DNA of 64,000 nt from Kibdelosporangium persicum. GTDB taxonomy: Bacteria; Actinomycetota; Actinomycetes; Mycobacteriales; Pseudonocardiaceae. The stretch is taken from the NCBI RefSeq assembly GCF_013280595.1, contig NZ_JAAATY010000016.1:124001-188000 (forward strand), given 5' to 3'. The position numbers and the translations under genes are program-made. Numbering within the stretch: the stretch's first letter is position 1; the number at the start of each line of letters is the position of its first letter. Shown in pieces: positions 4,647-50,786 of the stretch. The notes beneath the pieces were generated by a model. That model ran no database searches, was not told the DNA's origin, and saw nothing but the letters and a program-made list of their open reading frames with translations.

Positions 4647-6032
4647 TCAGCATCTGACGACCTGAATCTGACCGAGGCTCTTGGTCGCCGTCTGGCCGTT
4701 CCCGGCGACGGCGAGAACGGTCACCTCGGCGACGTGTCCGGCGTAGCGGTGCCGGAACGGGCCGACATGGCTGTACCAGTTGCCTGCCATGCCGATCATC
4801 GACACCGTCTCCTTGGCGTCCCGGATCTGCACGGTCATCCGGACCGACCTGACTCCGTCCGGAGCGATGACGCCGACCTTCACCCGAGTCACCGGACGGC
4901 ACCGGTCCCTCGTGCCGACCGTGCGGTGCGCGATCGCGTCCGGCCCGGCGATGATCGTCGGCGGGGCGGCGGGGTTCGTCTGAGCCATAGGCGCCGGAGG
5001 CGGTTTCGGCGGCGCCTGTTCGGCCGGCCGCGCACGGGCAGAGACCGTCGGAGACGCTGACGGCACCGTCGGCGATGACAGTGGTGGCGGTGGCGGTGGC
5101 GGTGGCGGCGGTTGGCGCCCGCTGACCGGTGGCTCGGTTGTGGGTCTTCCGGCCGGTGACACGATCTGCGTCTCGGTGGCGGGCATCGCCATGCCTTGTT
5201 CGACAGTCGAGGTGCCGTGGCTGACGATCAACGCACCGCCGATCGCCGCGACGGCGACAACGGCGGCCGCCGCGACCTTCTTCACCGTGAGCATGGTGCC
5301 GAGCACGCCGATCGGCACGGCGAAGATCGCCTTGCGGACGCCTTCCAGCGTCGCCGCCTGCCGCTCCAGGCAGGCCGGGCAGGTCCGGACATGCTTGTGG
5401 ATCCGCATGCACAACGTGCCATGCGGATCCGGTTTGCTGACGGCCTTGGTGACCTCGGGACATCTCAGCGGATCGTCGGCCGCCAGCGTCGCGGCGACGA
5501 TCGCCTCCCCGACGTGGTCGGCGAGCCGCCGGAACGTCACGCGCAACGCCGACGGCTTGAGGTCCAGTTCGTCGGCGACTTCGTCCTCGGTCAGCACGCC
5601 GCCTTCGAGCGCCAGGTAGTAGGCGAGCACTTCGAGCTGGCGTGCCGTCAGCAACGGCTTGGCCATCTCGATGAACCGCCCGGCGTCCAGGGAACTGGTC
5701 CGGTCGGCCACCTCCTCGGACGCCAGCTGGTCGAGCAGTTCCATCGCGTAGGACGCGGACCGCGGCGACCGCGCCTCGCTGCGGGCCGCGTCCTTGATCA
5801 GGTTGACCGCCACGGTGGCGAGGAAGACCCGCGGGTTGACGATCGGGTGGCGGGGCGGGCGGCGCTGCAGTTTCTCGAAAACCGCCTGCACCATGTCCTC
5901 CGCGTCGTGCAGGTTGCCCACGCGCTTCTGGCAGTACGCGAGCAGCCACGCCCGGTTCTGCTGACAGAGCAGCGTCAGCTCGGCCCGGCTCAGCCGACGG
6001 GGAATCCCGAAGTCGTGGGTCTCAGCGCTCAC
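4647..6032 (-). CDS. ECF sigma factor fused to a zinc-finger anti-sigma-like segment, one transmembrane helix and an extracellular domain
   Basis: The protein has 461 residues from the GTG at 6032. Residues 15–80 are sigma region 2 (LHDAEDMVQAVFEKL) and about 120–180 region 4 (LTARQLEVLAYYL, then a helix-turn-helix). Residues 208–221 contain C208, H214, C218 and C221 in the HxxxCxxC spacing of zinc-finger anti-sigma factors. A hydrophobic helix at 251–271 follows, then a proline-rich linker (305–350) with a run of ten prolines, and a beta-rich ectodomain (about 375–461) with C378 and C461. The sigma factor is therefore tethered to the membrane and carries its own sensor, instead of the usual two-gene sigma/anti-sigma pair. 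Fused, membrane-bound ECF proteins are known in actinobacteria. The signal and regulon are unknown. It is divergent from the GH1 gene. Confidence 0.85.
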   Translation of the reverse strand: MSAETHDFGIPRRLSRAELTLLCQQNRAWLLAYCQKRVGNLHDAEDMVQAVFEKLQRRPPRHPIVNPRVFLATVAVNLIKDAARSEARSPRSASYAMELLDQLASEEVADRTSSLDAGRFIEMAKPLLTARQLEVLAYYLALEGGVLTEDEVADELDLKPSALRVTFRRLADHVGEAIVAATLAADDPLRCPEVTKAVSKPDPHGTLCMRIHKHVRTCPACLERQAATLEGVRKAIFAVPIGVLGTMLTVKKVAAAAVVAVAAIGGALIVSHGTSTVEQGMAMPATETQIVSPAGRPTTEPPVSGRQPPPPPPPPPPLSSPTVPSASPTVSARARPAEQAPPKPPPAPMAQTNPAAPPTIIAGPDAIAHRTVGTRDRCRPVTRVKVGVIAPDGVRSVRMTVQIRDAKETVSMIGMAGNWYSHVGPFRHRYAGHVAEVTVLAVAGNGQTATKSLGQIQVVRC

Positions 6033-6141
6033 ATGTACTAAGACGGCTGGGCGCACCCCTGCGGAACACCGGAGGTGCCAGGTTCGCCGGAAGGCGTCAT
6101 CCCGCCACGACCGAGTGGCGGTTTCGGCTACGTCCCGTGAC

Positions 6142-7251
6142 ATGACGACTCTCGATAGCCTGGCAGACATGTTCCTGTGGGGCGTCGCCGGCGCCGGGTA
6201 CCAGTCCGAGGGCTCGGCCCCGGACAGCAACTGGTCGCGATTCGTGACGGGCTACCGTGACTCCGTCGACTTCCTGCACCGGTATCCGCAGGACATCGAA
6301 CTGGCCGCGGATCTGGGTGTGCGGGTGTTCCGGCTGTGCGTGGAGTGGGCCCGCGTGCAGCAGGTTCCCGGCGAGTGGGACTTCGACTTCTACGACGACG
6401 TCGTGGCCAGGGTCCGGGCGGCCGGGATGCGTCCGATGATCACCCTCGACCATTGGGTGTATCCGGCGTGGACGGGCGGCTGGCGCAATCCGCGCATGGT
6501 GGAGCTCTGGCTGGCCAACGCCGACCGTGTGGTGAAACGGTACGCGGGCAACGGCACCATCTGGATCACGTTCAACGAACCGACTGTCTACATGGCACAC
6601 GAGATCCGGCAGGGCAGGTTCAGCCCGATGATGCCCGGCCGGATGATCCAGGCGCACAAGGCGGCGTACCGGTTGATCCACGAGACCGACCCGCGGGCCC
6701 TGGTGTCCAGCAACGTCGCGTACATCCCGGTGGTGAACCGGTTGGCGGACTTCGGTTTCCTCGACTGGATCAGCGGGAGCACGGACTTCGTCGGGATCGA
6801 CTACTACTACGACGTCACACCGGGAAACCTCACCGCACTGCACGGCGCGACCGGCAAGCTGTACCGGATCGACCCGGAGCCGCAAGGGATCTACCGCGCG
6901 CTGAAGCACTACGCGCGCCGGTTTCCCAAGCTTCCGTTGTACATCGTGGAAAACGGGATGCCCACGGACGACGGGCGGCCCCGTGCCGACGGCTACACCC
7001 GCTCGGACCACCTGCGTGATCACGTGTACTGGATGTTACGGGCGCACTCCGAAGGCGTGAACGTGATCGGCTACAACTACTGGAGCCTGACCGACAACTT
7101 CGAGTGGGGCACGTACCGGCCCCGTTTCGGTCTGTACACAGTAGACGTGGAAACCGATCCGGCACTGGTCAGGCAGCCGACGGACGCGGTGGACACCTAC
7201 CGGGAAATCGTCACGTCCGGCCTGCCGGCGGGGTACCGGCCCAAGCGCTGA
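6142..7251 (+). CDS. Glycoside hydrolase family 1 (beta-glucosidase-like)
   Basis: The protein has 369 residues from the ATG at 6142, clearly shorter than the usual 440–480 of GH1. An in-frame ATG at 6169 is the alternative start and lies immediately before the N-terminal signature FLWGVAGAGYQSEG. Both catalytic glutamates are present: the acid/base E146 in ITFNEP and the nucleophile E270 in YIVENGMP. The aglycone/glycone-site stretch WSLTDNFEWG near the C terminus is intact. There is no signal peptide, so it should act in the cytosol on beta-glycosides. It is transcribed away from the ECF fusion gene, with start codons about 110 bp apart, so the two may share control. Confidence 0.9.
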   Translation: MTTLDSLADMFLWGVAGAGYQSEGSAPDSNWSRFVTGYRDSVDFLHRYPQDIELAADLGVRVFRLCVEWARVQQVPGEWDFDFYDDVVARVRAAGMRPMITLDHWVYPAWTGGWRNPRMVELWLANADRVVKRYAGNGTIWITFNEPTVYMAHEIRQGRFSPMMPGRMIQAHKAAYRLIHETDPRALVSSNVAYIPVVNRLADFGFLDWISGSTDFVGIDYYYDVTPGNLTALHGATGKLYRIDPEPQGIYRALKHYARRFPKLPLYIVENGMPTDDGRPRADGYTRSDHLRDHVYWMLRAHSEGVNVIGYNYWSLTDNFEWGTYRPRFGLYTVDVETDPALVRQPTDAVDTYREIVTSGLPAGYRPKR

Positions 7252-7389
7252 CACATTCGGCCGGTACATCCGTGAACGCACGGCCTCCCTTAAGGAAAGC
7301 TGTCAGTGTGGCCGCCGAAGCCCATTCGGCCGACCAGCCGGGTATCCTCAGCGACAACGAGTAGTCGCCGACAAGGGGCAGAGTAAGCA

Positions 7390-7632
7390 ATGGCAGGTGC
7401 AACCCGGGCCGCTGGAATGGTGCCACTGGTGGGTGCGTTGGCCACCGCCGCGGCGCTCGCGGGCGTCGCCGTGTTCAGCGCGTCGAGCGCCGGTTGCGCG
7501 AACCCAGGCCAGTACGTGCAGCGGGACGGCTACGTCGAACTGGTCGGCGGCTGCATCGACTCCCGCGACCTGCCCCCGGCACCGCCCGCCCCAGCCATCC
7601 ACCAGGGCGAACCCTCGTTCTTCCAGCAGTAA
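7390..7632 (+). CDS. Small exported protein of unknown function
   Basis: 80 residues. Residues 8–33 form a hydrophobic stretch (LVGALATAAALAGVAVF) ending near ASSAGCANP, which could be a signal peptide or an anchor. The mature part has two cysteines (in GCANPGQY and GGCIDSRD) that could form a disulfide, then a proline-rich tail. A ribosome binding site (AAGGGG) lies about 12 nt upstream of the ATG. The repeat hairpin downstream would end its transcript. No family was recognised. Confidence 0.6.
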   Translation: MAGATRAAGMVPLVGALATAAALAGVAVFSASSAGCANPGQYVQRDGYVELVGGCIDSRDLPPAPPAPAIHQGEPSFFQQ

Positions 7633-15827: not shown

Positions 15828-16598
15828 ATGGGGATATTGCGAGGGATTCGGGTCGCCGCTGTGGCTCTGGGCGGGGTGGGCGGGCTGTCCGGCGCGATGT
15901 ACGGACTGCTCACCGGACAGGGCAGGCGGGCGCGGACATTGATCGGGCGGTCCACAAGCGACCCCCACCGGGCGGACGGGCTCTACGAGGGCGGCGTCGG
16001 CAGCGTGCTGAAGTTCGCCGTACTGGGTGATTCCCTGGCCGCGGGGCTCGGTGCGGAGAACGCCGAGGAGTTGCCGGGGGTGTTGCTCGCCCGCGGTCTG
16101 GTCGAGGAGACCGGCCGTTCGGTGCGCCTGACGACGTACGCCCGGGTCGGTGCGACCACGCGGACGTTCATCTCCCAGGTCGACCAGGCGGTGGCGGACC
16201 CGCCGGACCTGGCGCTGGTGATCATCGGCGGCAACGACGTGACCGGGAAGATGCGGGTCCGCACATCCGCGGCGTTGCTGGGCATCGAGGTGGCCCGGCT
16301 GCGGCACGCGGGTGCCGCGGTGGTCGTCGCGACGTGCCCCGATCTCGGCACGATCAGGCCGATCCCGCAGCCGCTGCGCTCAGTGGTGCGGCAGTGGGGA
16401 CGCATGCTCGCCAAGGCGCAACGGCAAGCGGTGTTGCGGGCCGGCGGGGTGCCCGTGCCGATCGGTGACCTGATCTCGTCGGAGTTCCACCTGCGGTATT
16501 CGGAGCTGTTCAGCCCGGACCGCTTCCACCCGAACGGCGCCGGATACCGGCACGCTTCGAATGTGCTGCTGGCACCCCTGTGCCAGGCAGTGACGTAG
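15828..16598 (+). CDS. Membrane-anchored SGNH/GDSL hydrolase
   Basis: 256 residues. An N-terminal hydrophobic helix (residues 8–28) anchors or exports the protein. The catalytic serine is S69 in FAVLGDSLAAG, block III is GGND (N136) and the Asp–His pair is in DRFHPNGAGY near residue 240. This is the Rv1075c-type GDSL esterase that sits beside a thiolase in mycobacteria, as it does here. The ribosome binding site AGGGGAGG lies 6 nt before the ATG. The substrate is probably an ester or acetylated glycan of the envelope. Confidence 0.9.
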   Translation: MGILRGIRVAAVALGGVGGLSGAMYGLLTGQGRRARTLIGRSTSDPHRADGLYEGGVGSVLKFAVLGDSLAAGLGAENAEELPGVLLARGLVEETGRSVRLTTYARVGATTRTFISQVDQAVADPPDLALVIIGGNDVTGKMRVRTSAALLGIEVARLRHAGAAVVVATCPDLGTIRPIPQPLRSVVRQWGRMLAKAQRQAVLRAGGVPVPIGDLISSEFHLRYSELFSPDRFHPNGAGYRHASNVLLAPLCQAVT

Positions 16599-44913: not shown

Positions 44914-45368
44914 TTCTCCTCCAGACGGCCGAGCAGTTCGGTCAGCCGGTGCGGGGACGGCAGCTCAGCGTCCCGGGTGGTGATCAACGTGTACAGCTCG
45001 TCGCCCAGCTCCTGCCGGGCTCGCGGGTCGTCGAGGCTGATTCCCTTGTGCCGCAGCGTGTCGGCCGCGAGTTTGCGCAACCTCGGCTGGACCCGGCTGC
45101 GGAATCTGCCGGGGTCCTTCGCGGCTTCGGCGAACCTCGTCGACAACGTGCTCGCCTGGTGCGCCGTCAACGATTCGTCCGGCGCGGGCAGTGCTTGCCA
45201 GCTCGGCGCGGCGGCGCCGACGACCATCGTCGCCAGTGCCGTGACCGCGGCGACCGGGATCGCGACCAGAATCGCCCACATCAGGGGCATTTTCATCAGC
45301 CAGGTCGTCAGGACGGTGGCGATCCCGCCGATGGCGACCGCGGCCAGAACGGCGTTCAGCGGTTTCAT
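44910..45368 (-). CDS. Membrane protein of the MoxR operon
   Basis: 152 residues. Two N-terminal helices (VLAAVAIGGIATVLTTWLM; AILVAIPVAAVTALATMVV) are followed by a cytosolic domain with charged helices (RFRSRVQPRLRKLAADTL; ARQELGDELYTLI). No family was recognised. It overlaps DUF4129-like and MoxR genes by 4 nt each, so it is co-translated with them. Confidence 0.75.
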   Translation of the reverse strand: MKPLNAVLAAVAIGGIATVLTTWLMKMPLMWAILVAIPVAAVTALATMVVGAAAPSWQALPAPDESLTAHQASTLSTRFAEAAKDPGRFRSRVQPRLRKLAADTLRHKGISLDDPRARQELGDELYTLITTRDAELPSPHRLTELLGRLEEK

Positions 45369-46003
45369 GAGATGCTTTCCAGCGCTCGCCGCGCGGCGCG
45401 GGCGTCATCCTCGGTGACGTTTCCCGGCCGCCCGAACCGGGCGCGGTGATACAGCGTCCGCAATGTTCGCAAAGCTTCCTCGTCAGCGTTCTGTCCAGCC
45501 AGGACAGCGGCGGTGAACTCGGTCGGAGTCTGGTGCGGCTGACGCTCGACACCGGTTTCGGCGGCGGATTCCTCAAGCCGGACCCACGCGGCGATGACCG
45601 CGTCCGACGGCGGTCCTCCGATCTTGCGGTCCATTTCCGACAACGCCCGCTCGGTCGCCCGCGCCAGCCACGGCTCGGCACTGTCCACGGTCTCGTCGGA
45701 GACGGCGGTGCGCAACCGGATCCGTTTCCGCCGATAGAACCGAATACCGCTCAACGCGACAAGCAGCATCGCCAGCCCGAACAGCACGGCGGCCGAGACG
45801 ACCAGGATCAGCACCCCGGCCCCGTACGCGATCGGCTCGGACGAGACCGGCGGCGCCCCGGCCGGCGGGCCGCCGTCACCCGGGTCGAACCCGGTGCCGA
45901 GGCCGGCGGTGCCCCGCGGAATGCTCGAACTTCCCCGCGCCGCCACCACGGCCAGCACCAGGAAGGCAACGACCGCGAGCAGCACCGGCAACCGGACTTT
46001 CAT
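45365..46003 (-). CDS. DUF4129-like membrane protein, first gene of the MoxR operon
   Basis: 212 residues from the ATG at 46003. An N-terminal helix (VLLAVVAFLVLAVVAARG), a Gly/Pro-rich linker, a second helix (GVLILVVSAAVLFGLAMLLVAL) and a basic stop-transfer precede a cytosolic helical domain with WVRLEESAAETGVERQPHQTPTEF, the region typical of DUF4129. It heads the MoxR/DUF58 operon. Upstream lies the 68-bp repeat left of the toxin–antitoxin insert. Confidence 0.75.
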   Translation of the reverse strand: MKVRLPVLLAVVAFLVLAVVAARGSSSIPRGTAGLGTGFDPGDGGPPAGAPPVSSEPIAYGAGVLILVVSAAVLFGLAMLLVALSGIRFYRRKRIRLRTAVSDETVDSAEPWLARATERALSEMDRKIGGPPSDAVIAAWVRLEESAAETGVERQPHQTPTEFTAAVLAGQNADEEALRTLRTLYHRARFGRPGNVTEDDARAARRALESIS

Positions 46004-46046
46004 CACCAGAGCATCCCAAACTCCCCGCGGGATGGGGTGGACTATC

Positions 46047-46114
46047 ACCCGGCGTGGTCCTTGGCGGTGGTCAGGATGTCCGCGAGCATGCCGACCGTCA
46101 GCTTTCCCGTCAAC
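46047..46114. repeat. 68-bp direct repeat, left copy (duplicated 3' end of udg)
   Basis: 66 of 68 bases match 46853–46920. Read on the minus strand it encodes the end of the uracil-DNA glycosylase ([20 protein letters not shown], then an immediate stop). It is a detached copy of the gene's original 3' end, left on the far side of the toxin–antitoxin module. Confidence 0.93.
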
Positions 46115-46185
46115 AACTGGCCCGCGCAGGAGTCGAGCTGTTGTGCTAGCATTGCTGTCACTCGGTTGATCGGGAGGTGAGCACG

Positions 46186-46431
46186 ATGGCGACCCTGACC
46201 ATCCGCGGCCTCGACGAGGAAGTGCGCGAGCGGTTGCGAGTCCGGGCGGCCGAACACGGCCGATCCATGGAGGCGGAAGTCCGGGCGATCCTGCGGGAGA
46301 CACTGTTCCGGCAGACTCCGGCTCATGGGCTGGGCAGCCGGATCCGCGCTCGATTCGCGGACATCGAGGATCACGAGTTCGCGATCCCGACTCGTGACGA
46401 GTCACCGCGCGCGGTGGACTTGGACACGTGA
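46186..46431 (+). CDS. fitA: FitA-like ribbon-helix-helix antitoxin
   Basis: 81 residues from the ATG at 46186, with GGGAGG 8 nt upstream. The N terminus MATLTIRGLDEEVRERLRVRAAEHGRS is the RHH DNA-binding fold with the FitA/VapB signature, followed by a helix and an acidic tail that would fill the toxin's active site. It represses its own operon together with the toxin in known systems. Its TGA overlaps the toxin's GTG start. The AT-richer upstream segment (46115–46185) differs from the neighbouring genes. Confidence 0.9.
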   Translation: MATLTIRGLDEEVRERLRVRAAEHGRSMEAEVRAILRETLFRQTPAHGLGSRIRARFADIEDHEFAIPTRDESPRAVDLDT

Positions 46432-46850
46432 TCATTCTCGACACCAACGTGCTGTCCGAGGTCATCCGTCGCGAGCCGGACGAGTCAGTGCTGATGTGGC
46501 TCGACTCCCTCCCGGCCGAAGAGGTGGCCACCACAGCGATCACCGCGGCGGAGCTACTACACGGAGTCGCCCGGCTTCCCGACGGACATCGCAAGACCGC
46601 GCTGACAGAAGCAGTCAACGCGGTGGTACACAACGACTTTCACGGCCGCGTCGAGTCGTTCGACATGCTGGCGGCGAACGAATACGCGGCCATCGTCAGC
46701 CGCCGGGACATGGCGGGACGTCCCATCACCATGGCGGATGCCCAGATAGCCGCCATCTGCCGGTCGCGTCATGCGACGTTGGCCACCCGGAACACCAAGG
46801 ACTTCCTGAATACCGGCGTCGAACTGGTCGATCCCTGGCGCCTAACCTGA
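46428..46850 (+). CDS. fitB: FitB/VapC-like PIN-domain toxin ribonuclease
   Basis: 140 residues from the GTG at 46428. The PIN acidic residues are visible: the first Asp in [12 protein letters not shown], a Glu in ITAAELLHG, the Asp in [11 protein letters not shown] and the last Asp in LATRNTKDF. FitB/VapC toxins cut specific RNAs. Start overlaps the antitoxin stop, the normal arrangement. Its last codons overlap the altered 3' end of udg by 9 nt on the other strand. Confidence 0.9.
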
Positions 46851-47546
46851 CAACCCGGCGTGGTCCTTGGCGGTGGTCAGAATGTCCGCGAGCATGCCGA
46901 CCGTCAGCTTTCCCGTGAACGTGTTCTGCTGACTGACGTGGTAACACCCGAGCAACGTCAGATCCGGGCCACCGTCGACAGCGGGCAACCGCACCACAGC
47001 ACCATGCGCGAACTTCGGCCGCGGCACCGGAACCTGCCAACTGGCCAGCGCGGGCAGTAGAGCCTGCCAACCGAAGGCCCCGAGGACCACCACACACCGC
47101 AAAGTCGGCCGCAACAACGCCAACTCCCTGACCAGCCAGTGACGGCAGTTGTCCCGCTCCGCGGGCGTCGGCTTGTTCTCCGGCGGGGCACATCGGACGG
47201 GTGCCGTGATGCGGACGCCGTAGAGCGTGAGGCCGTCGCCGATGTGCGTGGACGTCGGTTGTGAGGCCAGGCCGGCGGCGTGCAGGGCTGCGTAGAGGAA
47301 GTCGCCTGAGCGGTCTCCGGTGAACATGCGGCCGGTCCGGTTGGCTCCGTGGGCCGCCGGGGCCAGGCCGACGATCGCTATCCGGGCGTCCGCCGGGCCG
47401 AAACCGGGCACCGGCCTGCCCCAGTAGGTCTGATCACGGAAGGCAGCCCGTTTCTCCACCGCCACCTGTTCACGCCAGGCCACCAGGCGTGGGCAGGCCC
47501 GGCAGGTGGTCACCGCGTGGTCCAGTTCGTCGAGGGTCTCCGGCAC
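46842..47546 (-). CDS. udgB: Family-5 uracil-DNA glycosylase (UdgB), 3' end rebuilt by the toxin–antitoxin insert
   Basis: 234 residues. C15 and C18 (TTCRACPRL) with two later cysteines (RCAPPENKP and DNCRHW) are the [4Fe-4S] ligands, and [20 protein letters not shown] is the family-5 motif A. It excises uracil and related damage in GC-rich genomes. The end reads KDHAG followed by LSG and a TAG lying inside the toxin gene's last codons. The detached repeat at 46047 instead has a stop directly after KDHAG. So the insertion added three residues but kept the enzyme intact. Confidence 0.92.
46853..46920. repeat. 68-bp direct repeat, right copy (inside the udg 3' end)
   Basis: Matches 46047–46114 at 66 of 68 positions (differences in the CAGGATG/CAGAATG and CGTCAAC/CGTGAAC steps). 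Starts are 806 bp apart, one repeat plus the 738-bp toxin–antitoxin segment. Confidence 0.93.
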
Positions 47547-47579: not shown

Positions 47580-49019
47580 ATGGCAGACAACGAGGAGCAG
47601 CCCAAACCGGCCAACCCGGCCGACGATCTCGTCACGACCAGTCACACGATCGGTGACCTGGCGTACACGGCGACCGCGGGCCGGGTGGTCCTGCGCCGGG
47701 AGGTGCTCACCGACGGCAAGTTCGACGGACACCTGGCCAAGGCCGAGGTCTTCCTGACCAGTTACATCCTGGACGGCGCCGACCCGGCCACGCGGCCGGT
47801 GACGTTCGCGTTCAACGGCGGCCCCGGGTCGTCGAGCGTGTGGCTGCATCTCGGTCTGTTCGGCCCGCGGCGGGTTCTCGCCGGAGACGCCGGCGACATC
47901 GCCAAGCCGCCGTACGAACTGGTCGACAACGCCGAGACGCTGCTCAAACACAGCGATCTCGTGTTCATCGACCCGGTGTCGACCGGCTACTCGCGGGCCA
48001 CGAAGGGCGAGAAGCCGGACGAGTTCCACGGTTTCACCGCGGACATCGAGTCCGTGGGCGAGATCATCCGGCTCTGGGCGTCGCGCAACGAGCGTTGGCT
48101 GTCGCCGAAGTTCCTCGCGGGCGAGTCGTACGGGACGCTGCGCGCGGCCGGTCTCGCCGAGCACCTGCAGTCGCGGCACGGCATGTACCTCAACGGGATC
48201 ATGCTGATCTCGTCCGTGCTCGACTTCGCCACGATCCACTTCACCGAAGGCAACGACCTGCCTTACGTGTTGTTCCTGCCGACGTACGCGGCGATCGCGC
48301 ACTACCACGGCCTGCACGGCGACCGCCCGCTCGACGAGGTGCTCGCCGAGGCGGAGGAGTTCGCCAGCCGTGACTACCCTTGGGCCCTGTCCCAGGGTGC
48401 CCGGTTACCCGATCGCCAGTCCATTGTAGACAAGGTCGCGAGCCTGACCGGGCTCAAGCCGGACTTCGTCGACCGGGTGAACCTCCGGGTCGAACACGTC
48501 CGGTTCTACACGGAGGTGCTGCGCGACCGTCGCCGTGTCACCGGACGGCTGGACGCCCGATTCCTGGGCTGGGACAACGACTACGGCCGTGAACTGATGA
48601 GCGAGGACCCGTCGTACACGGCGATCCTCGGCCCGTACACCGCCGCGCTGAACCACTACATCCGCGCGGAGTTGGAGTACGCCAACGACTTGCCGTACGA
48701 GATCCTCACCGGCAACGTGCACCCGTGGTCGTTCAAGGAGTTCGAGAACGCGTCGGTCACCGTCGCCGACAAGCTCTCCGCGGCGATGCGCGCCAACCAC
48801 AACCTCAAGGTGCACGTGGCTTCCGGCTACCTCGACGGCGCCACACCGTACTACGCCGCCGAACACGTCTTGGCGCACTTGACCATTCCGGACGAGCTGC
48901 GCGGCAACATCGAGACGAAGTACTACCCCGCCGGGCACATGATGTACGTCCACGAGCCCAGCCGGCTGCAGCAGTCCGAAGACCTCGCGGCCTTCATCCG
49001 CTCCGCCGCCAACCGCTGA
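47580..49019 (+). CDS. S10-family serine carboxypeptidase-like peptidase, cytosolic
   Basis: 479 residues. The substrate-binding motif NGGPGSSSVWLHLG, nucleophile S183 in AGESYGTLRA, acid in ASGYLDGATPY and histidine in PAGHMMYVHEPSR complete the S10 triad. Eukaryotic S10 enzymes are secreted or vacuolar, but this protein starts MADNEEQPKPANPADD with no signal peptide, so it should work in the cytosol on peptides. It faces the subtilase/oligopeptide operon across a hairpin repeat, which fits peptide degradation. The ribosome binding site is weak. Confidence 0.9.
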   Translation: MADNEEQPKPANPADDLVTTSHTIGDLAYTATAGRVVLRREVLTDGKFDGHLAKAEVFLTSYILDGADPATRPVTFAFNGGPGSSSVWLHLGLFGPRRVLAGDAGDIAKPPYELVDNAETLLKHSDLVFIDPVSTGYSRATKGEKPDEFHGFTADIESVGEIIRLWASRNERWLSPKFLAGESYGTLRAAGLAEHLQSRHGMYLNGIMLISSVLDFATIHFTEGNDLPYVLFLPTYAAIAHYHGLHGDRPLDEVLAEAEEFASRDYPWALSQGARLPDRQSIVDKVASLTGLKPDFVDRVNLRVEHVRFYTEVLRDRRRVTGRLDARFLGWDNDYGRELMSEDPSYTAILGPYTAALNHYIRAELEYANDLPYEILTGNVHPWSFKEFENASVTVADKLSAAMRANHNLKVHVASGYLDGATPYYAAEHVLAHLTIPDELRGNIETKYYPAGHMMYVHEPSRLQQSEDLAAFIRSAANR

Positions 49020-49023
49020 AAAA

Positions 49024-49075
49024 CCCCTCGTGAGTGGTTATCGGTGTTCTAACCCTGATAACCACTCACGAGGGG
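49024..49075. repeat. Palindromic hairpin repeat, copy 3 (inverted)
   Basis: The longest copy: a perfect 19-bp stem (CCCCTCGTGAGTGGTTATC, 49024–49042, with its complement at 49057–49075). The 14-nt loop is the exact reverse complement of copy 1's loop, so this copy lies in the opposite orientation. It fills the space between two convergent peptidase genes. Confidence 0.92.
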
Positions 49076-49082
49076 GGTGGGG

Positions 49083-50786
49083 TTACTTGAGGAACTTCTG
49101 GCCGGCTACGACTGCCTGGTAGGCGTCGATCTGGCCGTGGCCGTAGAAGCCGTTGAACTCCAGGTCGCCCTCACACGTGGCCGTCCAGTCGGCCGGACGC
49201 TGCTCGTCGAGGTAGTCGACCGTGCGCGGAGTCGGACACGGAGTCGCCGTGGCGGTGCCCTCCAGGACACGCTCCACCTTGTCCGGGTCCAGGTTCGCGT
49301 CGCCACCGCGGAACTTGCCGTAGGTGCTGATGATCAGGGCCGCGACACCGGTCGCGTGCGGGGCGGCCATCGAGGTGCCCTGCAGCGGACGGTAGTACGC
49401 GCCCGGCCGGTCCAGCTTGATCACGCCGACGGCCGCGCCATCGGGGGTGACGTTGCCCGCCGCGTCCACGAAGCCCTCAGCGACCAGCACGTTCTGCGGG
49501 TACGTGGACAGGATCATGTTGTCCAGGCTGTTGTACCAGGGCGTACCGAAGTAGTCCCGGCGGTAGCCACCCGGCGCGGACACCGAGATCTGCTCAAGAC
49601 CGTAGGTCGAGAAGTCGGACTTGGCACCGGACGGGCCGTACGACGAGACGTTGAGGACGTGCGGGCCCTCGGACGGCATCGACTGGCAGGTCGCGTTGTC
49701 GATGGTGCGTTCGTGCTCGGTGCCCAGCGGGAAGTCCGGGCTCGTCGTGTCCGGCAGCGGCTTGCCCGCGTCGGTGTGGTCGTTGCCGTAGGCCGAGATC
49801 AGCGTGACGCCCTTGCGGTGGGCGTAACGCAGGGCCCGCGTCACAGCCGTCTTGATGGTCCGCTGCTGCGCCTGCTGCTCCGGCGTGTCAGCCGGGTTGT
49901 TGTCGCAGTTGTACAGCCACGGGTCCACGTAGAACGACATGTTGACCACGTCGATGCCGTTGTCGGCGGCGTAGGTCAGGGCGTTGACGGTCGGCTGCAG
50001 GAAGAAGAAACCGTAGTCCTGCCCGGCCCGGAGGTTCACAATGGACACTCCAGGCGCGACACCCGACAGGCCGAAGCCGTTGGCCGCCGCGGCCACGATG
50101 CCGGCCACGTGCGTGCCGTGACCGCCGTGGTCCACATCGGCCGGGTCCACGCAGCCGCGGTACTCACAAGGACCGTCGATCTCGTTGCCGAGCTCGTCGA
50201 ACGGGATGTCCTTGGTGAAGTTGCGCGACAGCTTCCGGTCGAAGTTCGGCGCGATGTCCGGGTGGGACGCGTCCACACCGGTGTCGATGATGCCGACCTT
50301 GACACGCTTGTCACCGGTCGTCTTGTCCCGCGCCAGGTCCGCGCGGATCGACTTCAGTCCCCACAGTTGCTCGTCCAGCGGGTCGAGGCCGACCGGCGTG
50401 GCGGCCTGGTTCTGCGCCTTGTTGCCGTTGCCGCGGTCCTTCTCGACGTCGGCGTCCTTGCGCTTCTTCTTGCCCGCCTCCGGCGAGTGGCCGATCGACT
50501 GCACCTTGGCGGCGGACAACACCGAGCCGCTGCGGGCCAGCCGCTCGGTGAACCCGTTCGCGGGCGCCTTGGCGGTCAGCAGGCCGACCGCGTCGTTGCG
50601 CTCGAGAACCGTGCCACCGGCGGCCTTCACCGCCTGCTCGACCGACGCGGCCGAGGCACCGTCCTTGGCCAGCACGTTGAACTCGACCGGCGCGCCGGAC
50701 AGTTCCGGCTGCGCCGCGACGGTCGGCGCGGCGACCAGCGTCACCAGCAACGGCAGCGCCGAGAGGGCGATCGTCGTTTTTCTCAT
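49083..50786 (-). CDS. Secreted S8 subtilisin-like peptidase, last gene of the opp operon
   Basis: 567 residues. Signal peptide at 1–25 (ALSALPLLVTLVAAPTVAAQ), an inhibitor-like prodomain to about 100, a Lys-rich linker, then the catalytic domain: D168 (IIDTGVDASHPD), H223 (GHGTHVAG), N335 (AYGNDH) and S472 (GTSMAAPHATG). A Cys-containing loop DGPCEYRGCVDP lies between D and H. It is a close paralogue of the next gene upstream, whose stop overlaps its ATG. It should hydrolyse extracellular protein, feeding the oligopeptide importer of the same operon. Confidence 0.92.
   Translation of the reverse strand: MRKTTIALSALPLLVTLVAAPTVAAQPELSGAPVEFNVLAKDGASAASVEQAVKAAGGTVLERNDAVGLLTAKAPANGFTERLARSGSVLSAAKVQSIGHSPEAGKKKRKDADVEKDRGNGNKAQNQAATPVGLDPLDEQLWGLKSIRADLARDKTTGDKRVKVGIIDTGVDASHPDIAPNFDRKLSRNFTKDIPFDELGNEIDGPCEYRGCVDPADVDHGGHGTHVAGIVAAAANGFGLSGVAPGVSIVNLRAGQDYGFFFLQPTVNALTYAADNGIDVVNMSFYVDPWLYNCDNNPADTPEQQAQQRTIKTAVTRALRYAHRKGVTLISAYGNDHTDAGKPLPDTTSPDFPLGTEHERTIDNATCQSMPSEGPHVLNVSSYGPSGAKSDFSTYGLEQISVSAPGGYRRDYFGTPWYNSLDNMILSTYPQNVLVAEGFVDAAGNVTPDGAAVGVIKLDRPGAYYRPLQGTSMAAPHATGVAALIISTYGKFRGGDANLDPDKVERVLEGTATATPCPTPRTVDYLDEQRPADWTATCEGDLEFNGFYGHGQIDAYQAVVAGQKFLK

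Follow-up and report, generated by a model that had tools for sequence, protein, structure and literature searches.

A FitAB-type gene pair between two copies of the udgB 3′ end in Kibdelosporangium persicum, and repeated gene ends behind udgB in related genera

The udgB locus in the window and in its congeners

The window analysed here is a stretch of 64,000 nucleotides from Kibdelosporangium persicum (contig NZ_JAAATY010000016.1). In it, two small genes lie between the 3′ end of a uracil-DNA glycosylase gene and a second, detached copy of that end. The glycosylase matches PF03167 (UDG superfamily) with an E value of 8e-26; Pfam gives the superfamily only, and the NCBIfam family-4 models match below their cut-offs. 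We take it to be a family 5 enzyme (UdgB) and call its gene udgB. The features of the locus, in window coordinates, are as follows.

45365..46003, minus strand: gene that we take to be of DUF4129 type, the first of the right flank; it directly follows udgB in two congeners with an empty site
46047..46114, minus strand: detached copy of the udgB 3′ end, KDHAG followed by TGA; adjoins the native right flank
46115..46143, no strand: distal junction, which joins the fitAB upstream element to the detached udgB end; no recognisable TCCGTRAANCCGTTCAC motif
46144..46161, plus strand: TGCTAGCATTGCTGTCAC, an upstream element common to FitAB cassettes of other genera; contains the palindrome TGCTAGCA
46186..46431, plus strand: predicted fitA-like ribbon-helix-helix antitoxin (PF22513, E 2e-20)
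46428..46850, plus strand: predicted fitB-like PIN-domain toxin (PF01850, E 1e-14)
46842..47546, minus strand: udgB (uracil-DNA glycosylase superfamily), the target gene; stop codon at 46842-46844, ends in KDHAGLSG and TAG
46853..46920, minus strand: proximal repeat copy, the 3′ end of the functional udgB
46921..46944, minus strand: putative 24-nt core interval TTACCACGTCAGTCAGCAGAACAC in the conserved HVSQQN codons; the repeat starts at the adjacent nucleotide
46921-46927, minus strand: candidate crossover, putatively at or near AGAACAC

The two copies form a direct repeat of 68 nt with two differences (97% identity, BLAST E 2e-29), their starts are 806 nt apart, and fitA and fitB lie between them. 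The first-pass annotation had described this layout, and had read the detached copy as ending in KDHAG and a stop and the functional udgB as ending three codons later, inside the last codons of fitB; both descriptions held. The stop codon of udgB falls within a 9-nt tail-to-tail overlap with fitB, whose own stop is at 46848-46850, and fitB abuts the udgB end, as in the arrays described below. At the other side, the stop codon of the detached end occupies 46045-46047 and the DUF4129 gene begins 41 nt further. The 5′ edge of the repeat (GTT and one mismatch) may be fortuitous, which would leave a secure repeat of about 64 bp with one difference. A chance origin of the repeat was ruled out, as none of 135 control gene ends in 29 loci had a downstream repeat at E ≤ 1e-6. 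The annotation had also considered that the 68 bp might be an unrelated repeat scattered widely. In a genome search the stretch was found once. It had noted the lack of an integrase, and none was seen in the window by pattern scan.

FitA and FitB both score above the curated cut-offs of their families, and their reading frames overlap, which makes them a FitAB-type pair by domains. In domain make-up and gene order the pair resembles other FitAB/VapBC modules; the cargo is ordinary and the setting is unusual. The element TGCTAGCATTGCWGTC upstream of the window fitAB is common to other FitAB cassettes. The palindrome TGCTAGCA, at 46144-46151 upstream of fitA, is conserved in the FitAB cassettes of other genera and, we assume, resembles the FitA operator half-site of Neisseria. 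By its sequence and position, TGCTAGCATTGCTGTCAC with this palindrome may act as promoter and operator. Elsewhere in the window, a near-perfect inverted repeat (49024-49075; 25-nt arms, 92% complementary, 2 nt apart) lies between the convergent genes 47580-49019 (plus strand) and 49083-50786 (minus strand), and is probably a bidirectional terminator.

Seven congeners were compared with the window. Empty sites, which the first-pass annotation had predicted, were found in two of them (G004 and G006), where 94 and 88 nt, respectively, separate the DUF4129 gene from the final udgB codon of the alignment. As this gene directly follows udgB in both, the empty site is likely to be the ancestral state. 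At the position of the window fitAB, two other congeners (G001 and G007) have a two-gene pair of another kind. In G003 and G005 (loci L099 and L101), apparent decayed remnants were seen by eye between udgB and the DUF4129 gene. They seem to derive from the two-gene cassette that is intact in G001 and G007, and the protein search did not match them. Relative to the MoxR operon, G002 (L098) has udgB and its carboxypeptidase-like neighbour in inverted orientation; by eye, the frame after the udgB stop looks like an HD-domain (Cas3-like) protein. A second udgB end was absent from all seven congeners, even where cargo was present; a second repeat without toxin-antitoxin genes, which had been named beforehand as counter-evidence, thus occurs in none of them. 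Both copies in the window end in TVGML, and such an end occurs in none of the seven. Because the two copies share it, the window offers no means of distinguishing a foreign end from a native end.

Arrays behind udgB in related genera

A FitB query against 390 genomes of the family matched 51 of them, and 30 loci, the window's own included, were retrieved. Among the nine FitB relatives with at least 65% identity, seven adjoin udgB or fragments of its 3′ end. None of the 20 more distant relatives had udgB in the retrieved flank of 1.5 kb or less. We then surveyed repeats in 29 loci chosen for fitB or model hits, with three fetched loci that have no udgB left out. Repeats of the udgB end were present downstream of udgB in 16 of the 29, whereas none was found for the 135 control gene ends of these loci. 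At E ≤ 1e-6, locus L168 (genome G384) has five copies over 5.6 kb, L176 has three, L165, L166 and L173 have two each, and eleven other loci, including the window, have a single copy.

Behind udgB, Saccharopolyspora and neighbouring genera of the family carry between one and five small cassettes. Many of these contain toxin-antitoxin genes, and each ends in a further copy of the udgB 3′ end. The cassettes are 419-2247 nt long, with a median of 948 nt (24 intervals, L183 left out). Clear copies were found in six of the 21 Saccharopolyspora genomes examined behind udgB (22 in the set), and one further genome has a borderline 49-nt match. The other copy-bearing loci belong to genera g13, g14, g35, g38 and g46, and, of the named loci, those of Saccharopolyspora come closest to the ones that were compared; the nearest to the window locus among the named loci compared is Solihabitans. 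Neither the motif nor the model had a hit in another 20 loci (11 from Saccharopolyspora and nine from other genera). Short repeats in two of these passed E 1e-6 (49 nt in L234 and 33 nt in L244) and were not counted as copies.

The repeat is not a general feature behind udgB. None of 118 other udgB loci (80 of them from named records) reached E 1e-10; weaker repeats at E ≤ 0.05 were present in 69 of the 118 (best 1e-6, in L025) and were taken as noise. FitAB or HigBA also occurs beside udgB without any repeat, in L169, L241 and L243. Two further observations concern individual loci. L183 (G105) has a 274-bp repeat with 99.6% identity, from -132 to +141 and from +1102 to +1375 relative to the udgB stop, which by eye flanks a VapBC-like pair. 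Its edges are unlike those of the arrays and it extends past the stop codon; it is perhaps a recent homologous or illegitimate insertion, and a near-perfect repeat with other edges indicates that other routes exist. The near-identical genomes G052 and G084 (L184 and L185) have udgB ends that differ only in the last codons, and their first downstream kilobase differs. They perhaps represent a further recent exchange of cassettes, in which no detached copy is present.

The first-pass annotation had expected other cargo between copies of the udgB end, and such cargo was found in other genera. Profile searches with 20 chosen cassette proteins revealed the toxin-antitoxin families HigB, HigA, FitA and FitB, a second PIN protein, PHD-like and CopG-type antitoxins and a Fic/Doc protein. 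They also revealed a GNAT acetyltransferase, a HAD hydrolase, a mycothiol-S-transferase/DinB protein, an MDMPI-type protein and a weak glyoxalase match. The remaining chosen proteins had no Pfam match, and one of them matches the PADLOC model HEC-09. HigA is present in 12 of the 89 fetched loci that were searched. A pair of genes for 367 and 276 amino acids recurs after udgB or one of its copies in three Saccharopolyspora loci (L166, where it spans 5602-7523, L168 and L176), in two loci of the window's genus (L097 and L103) and in one of genus g8 (L120), with 46-58% identity between the three genera. It had no match in Pfam, NCBIfam or PADLOC and is a candidate for a new toxin-antitoxin or defence pair.

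In a tree of FitB proteins, eight rows from udgB sites, including the window, fall within a clade of ten (support 100/98). The window groups with five Saccharopolyspora rows from udgB sites (97/97), and the FitB of the congener G002 lies elsewhere. By this tree, the window FitB descends from within the udgB-site clade. As to other sources, 776 plasmid records have a FitB match, two at 60-80% identity and 774 below 60%. A phage or virus origin was rejected: 30 motif hits in viral contigs are about the number expected by chance on a rough reckoning, the motif end together with the core gave none, and one phage protein was hit at 50% identity.

Junctions, a replaced gene end and the search for a recombinase

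A typical copy begins at the HVSQQN codons of udgB and breaks off about 11 nt short of the stop; its last codons and stop come from whatever sequence follows. The 5′ edges of 21 of the 25 copies start within a 24-nt core, CTACCACGTCAGCCAGCAGAACAC; the exceptions, besides the window, are L183, L195 and one copy in L176. The 3′ edge lies 9-15 nt before the stop in 14 of the 25 (two of the 14 after correction for the longer tail of L166). The window likewise has cargo between udgB and a detached end with its edges at these common positions: the 3′ edge is 11 nt before the stop and the 5′ edge is at the nucleotide next to the core.

With at most one mismatch, the motif TCCGTRAANCCGTTCAC precedes 12 of the 15 Saccharopolyspora copies and 13 of the 25 overall, and udgB itself does not have it there. 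In 22 Saccharopolyspora genomes the motif gave 15 hits, 13 of which are in the udgB arrays of six genomes and two elsewhere, compared with one hit for a reversed-pattern control. No motif could be recognised at the distal junction in the window, whose detached copy is also missed by model R1. The motif is likewise missing before copies in L172, L178, L180, L181, L182, L194 and other loci. Together with udgB, the motif forms inverted arms, GTRAANCCGTTC and GAACACCTTCAC, which are resolved at 14 of 19 sites. The arms are 13 nt apart at nine of the 19 and 7, 9 or 14 nt apart at five, and the remaining five have no resolved arms. Since the spacer differences at the other sites narrow the interval, we infer from the alignments that the crossover lies in the core, at about AGAACAC. 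The exact arm pattern was found in none of 394 genomes of the class; only three of these are from the window's family, and the search therefore says little about the family.

The strongest evidence on the mechanism comes from L165 and L176, loci of two Saccharopolyspora sister genomes. Between their udgB genes there are 14 mismatches in the 623 positions of the body, which reaches up to the core, none in the core itself and 14 in the 67 positions that follow it (Fisher 2.4e-8). Among 23 close udgB pairs, this pair has the highest body identity (~98%; 97.5%) and the lowest end identity (79-80%). The far copy in L165 is 92% identical to the udgB end of L176 and 83% identical to that of L165 itself. 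On the simplest reading of these sequences, the udgB end of L165 would be new, and its native end would have been displaced downstream, beyond the cassettes. The replaced proximal end points to insertion of a unit with its own gene end and argues against target-site duplication. The first-pass proposal, that the arrangement looks like site-specific insertion of a unit carrying its own copy of the target's 3′ end, holds in its essentials, most directly through this mosaic udgB; in the window itself the route may have been site-specific or homologous, and the array motif is lacking. Five arrays have several copies at E ≤ 1e-6, and in every one of them the copy adjacent to udgB resembles udgB most closely, which by our reckoning would occur by chance in roughly one of 120 cases. 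It suggests that new cassettes probably enter at udgB.

The inverted arms suggest an enzyme of the tyrosine type. Unusually for such an enzyme, however, the mapped crossover would be at one arm and not at the midpoint, and the spacer length is not constant. No fitting recombinase was found in partial pattern scans, which were run without a positive control. In 147 loci, covering up to 12 kb behind udgB, these scans revealed a single tyrosine-type frame, in the Nocardia locus L044, and no serine recombinase. Pfam found no recombinase among the 20 chosen cassette proteins. A tyrosine-recombinase-like frame in L166 (16944-17954) is 0.4 kb from a tRNA gene (16461-16534) and 11.4 kb from udgB; it was set aside as the array recombinase, being likely part of an unrelated island of the adjacent tRNA gene. 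PF00589 has 8 to 71 hits in each of 14 genomes, and among the matches listed, which do not include the L166 frame, none lies within 20 kb of an array.

Sites of the attC type have the R box consensus GTTRRRY and can fold. The attC consensus was absent by eye at the 19 arm sites, and an attC-like hairpin was rejected, as five detached sites and two udgB controls fold no better than shuffled sequences (z -1.0 to +0.7). An Rfam search found only tRNAs in three loci.

Explanations of the locus and comparison with known systems

We consider it likely that the window holds one cassette of a trans-acting, site-specific system that docks at the 3′ end of udgB and brings its own gene end. A cassette, presumably circular when free, would carry its cargo (here fitAB) and its own last ~70-95 bp of udgB, with a recombination site preceding this end. 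The crossover, made by a recombinase acting in trans, would fall in or close to AGAACAC, which lies in the HVSQQN codons. Thereby udgB would retain a working end, now that of the cassette, and the old end would be pushed beyond the cargo; repeated docking would stack the cassettes, with the newest next to udgB. This reading draws on the common edges, the Saccharopolyspora motif, the one replaced end, the recurrence of cargo across genera and the descent of FitB as compared by sequence. The circular form, the recombinase in trans and the arrival of the window cassette by this route, with its motif lost or never present, would be parts of the same scheme. Against it speak the motif-less junction of the window, the like ends of its two copies, the congeners' lack of a second repeat, the negative recombinase scans, the varying arm spacing, the L183 repeat with other edges and the FitAB or HigBA pairs beside udgB without a repeat. 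The missing motif and the likeness of the two window copies could stem from homogenisation of the copies, from a donor of the same species or from a different route.

An unlikely but serious alternative is a one-off import, in which site-specific recombination would be confined to Saccharopolyspora-like genera. The udgB-fitAB segment of a close relative would have recombined homologously at one end and illegitimately at the other, or a circle would have entered by a homologous crossover, with the old end left behind. Such an event fits the 97% identity of the window copies with their same unusual end, the motif-less junction and the long repeat with free edges in L183. However, it does not account for the window's edges, which match those of motif-bearing copies elsewhere (within a nucleotide at the 5′ side), nor for a window FitB that nests in the udgB-site clade. 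It is very improbable that the insertion duplicates the target itself, as in a very long target-site duplication by a CRISPR-adaptation-like process or staggered-break repair. The copies would then always be the host's own, and the first copy is indeed most like the host's udgB in six of the 12 array loci compared (8 of 20 copies); the newest-first polarity would also follow. Yet in L165 it is the proximal end that is odd and the distal end that is native-like, and the motif upstream of the copies is not derived from udgB. Hardly credible at all is a partial tandem duplication of the udgB end with a later insertion of the toxin-antitoxin pair and no mobile unit: the 274-bp duplication in L183 gives it a precedent, but arrays of up to five copies have unrelated cargo and common edges, control genes gave 0 of 135, and no congener has a second repeat without cargo.

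On the preferred reading of a docking cassette, integrons are the first comparison. Integron arrays consist of small cassettes with recombination sites, the newest proximal, and are rich in toxin-antitoxin genes. The udgB arrays resemble integrons and CALINs in all of this: small cassettes, a recombination site in each, the newest proximal and many toxin-antitoxin genes. They differ in that no IntI was seen, no attC consensus was recognised by eye and no unusual single-strand folding was found at the udgB sites; moreover, the cargo lies in both orientations and docking takes place at the coding end of a gene. A survey of RefSeq genomes with IntegronFinder 2.0 found no complete integrons in Actinobacteria (PMC9024848).

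The tandem genomic islands at ssrA of Dehalococcoides, compared in their description with SCCmec/Ccr (PMC3146451), are similar in other respects. There, repeats of a gene 3′ end stand in tandem downstream of the gene, a short motif that cannot be aligned with the target lies directly upstream of each repeat and marks the insertion point, and some islands have no recombinase module (PMC3146451). The target in that case is an RNA gene, the repeat is 20 bp and 16 islands have a serine-recombinase module (PMC3146451), unlike the udgB system with its protein gene, repeats of ~70-95 bp, cassettes of 0.4-2.2 kb and no recombinase seen. In a review that treats accretion, CIMEs figure as decayed ICEs or IMEs (PMC5704250). 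In contrast, no parent element was found for the udgB cassettes, which look minimal rather than decayed. Our literature search, which covered subscription journals and bioRxiv only to a small extent, returned no account of udgB as an integration site.

The pattern appears to be an integron-like mode of gene collection that has not been described, and can be classed as gene-end accretion with integron-like arrays. A wider reading can be put forward tentatively, as possible though somewhat short of probable: this actinobacterial family may have a gene-cassette platform, independent of IntI integrons, with the coding 3′ end of udgB as the dock. Its cassettes would rebuild the gene end, enter beside the gene and age outward, and would serve as a store of genes for toxin-antitoxin pairs and small enzymes, which pass from genus to genus. 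Although the integron survey was negative, the arrays in these genomes have polarity, a recombination site in common and toxin-antitoxin cargo that is interchangeable. The motif and the interval to which the crossover was mapped provide concrete junctions, and a search for a trans-acting enzyme is well posed. If the reading is true, the C-terminus of a DNA-repair enzyme would be exchanged by mobile DNA, and toxin-antitoxin pairs would have a route by which they settle beside a core gene.
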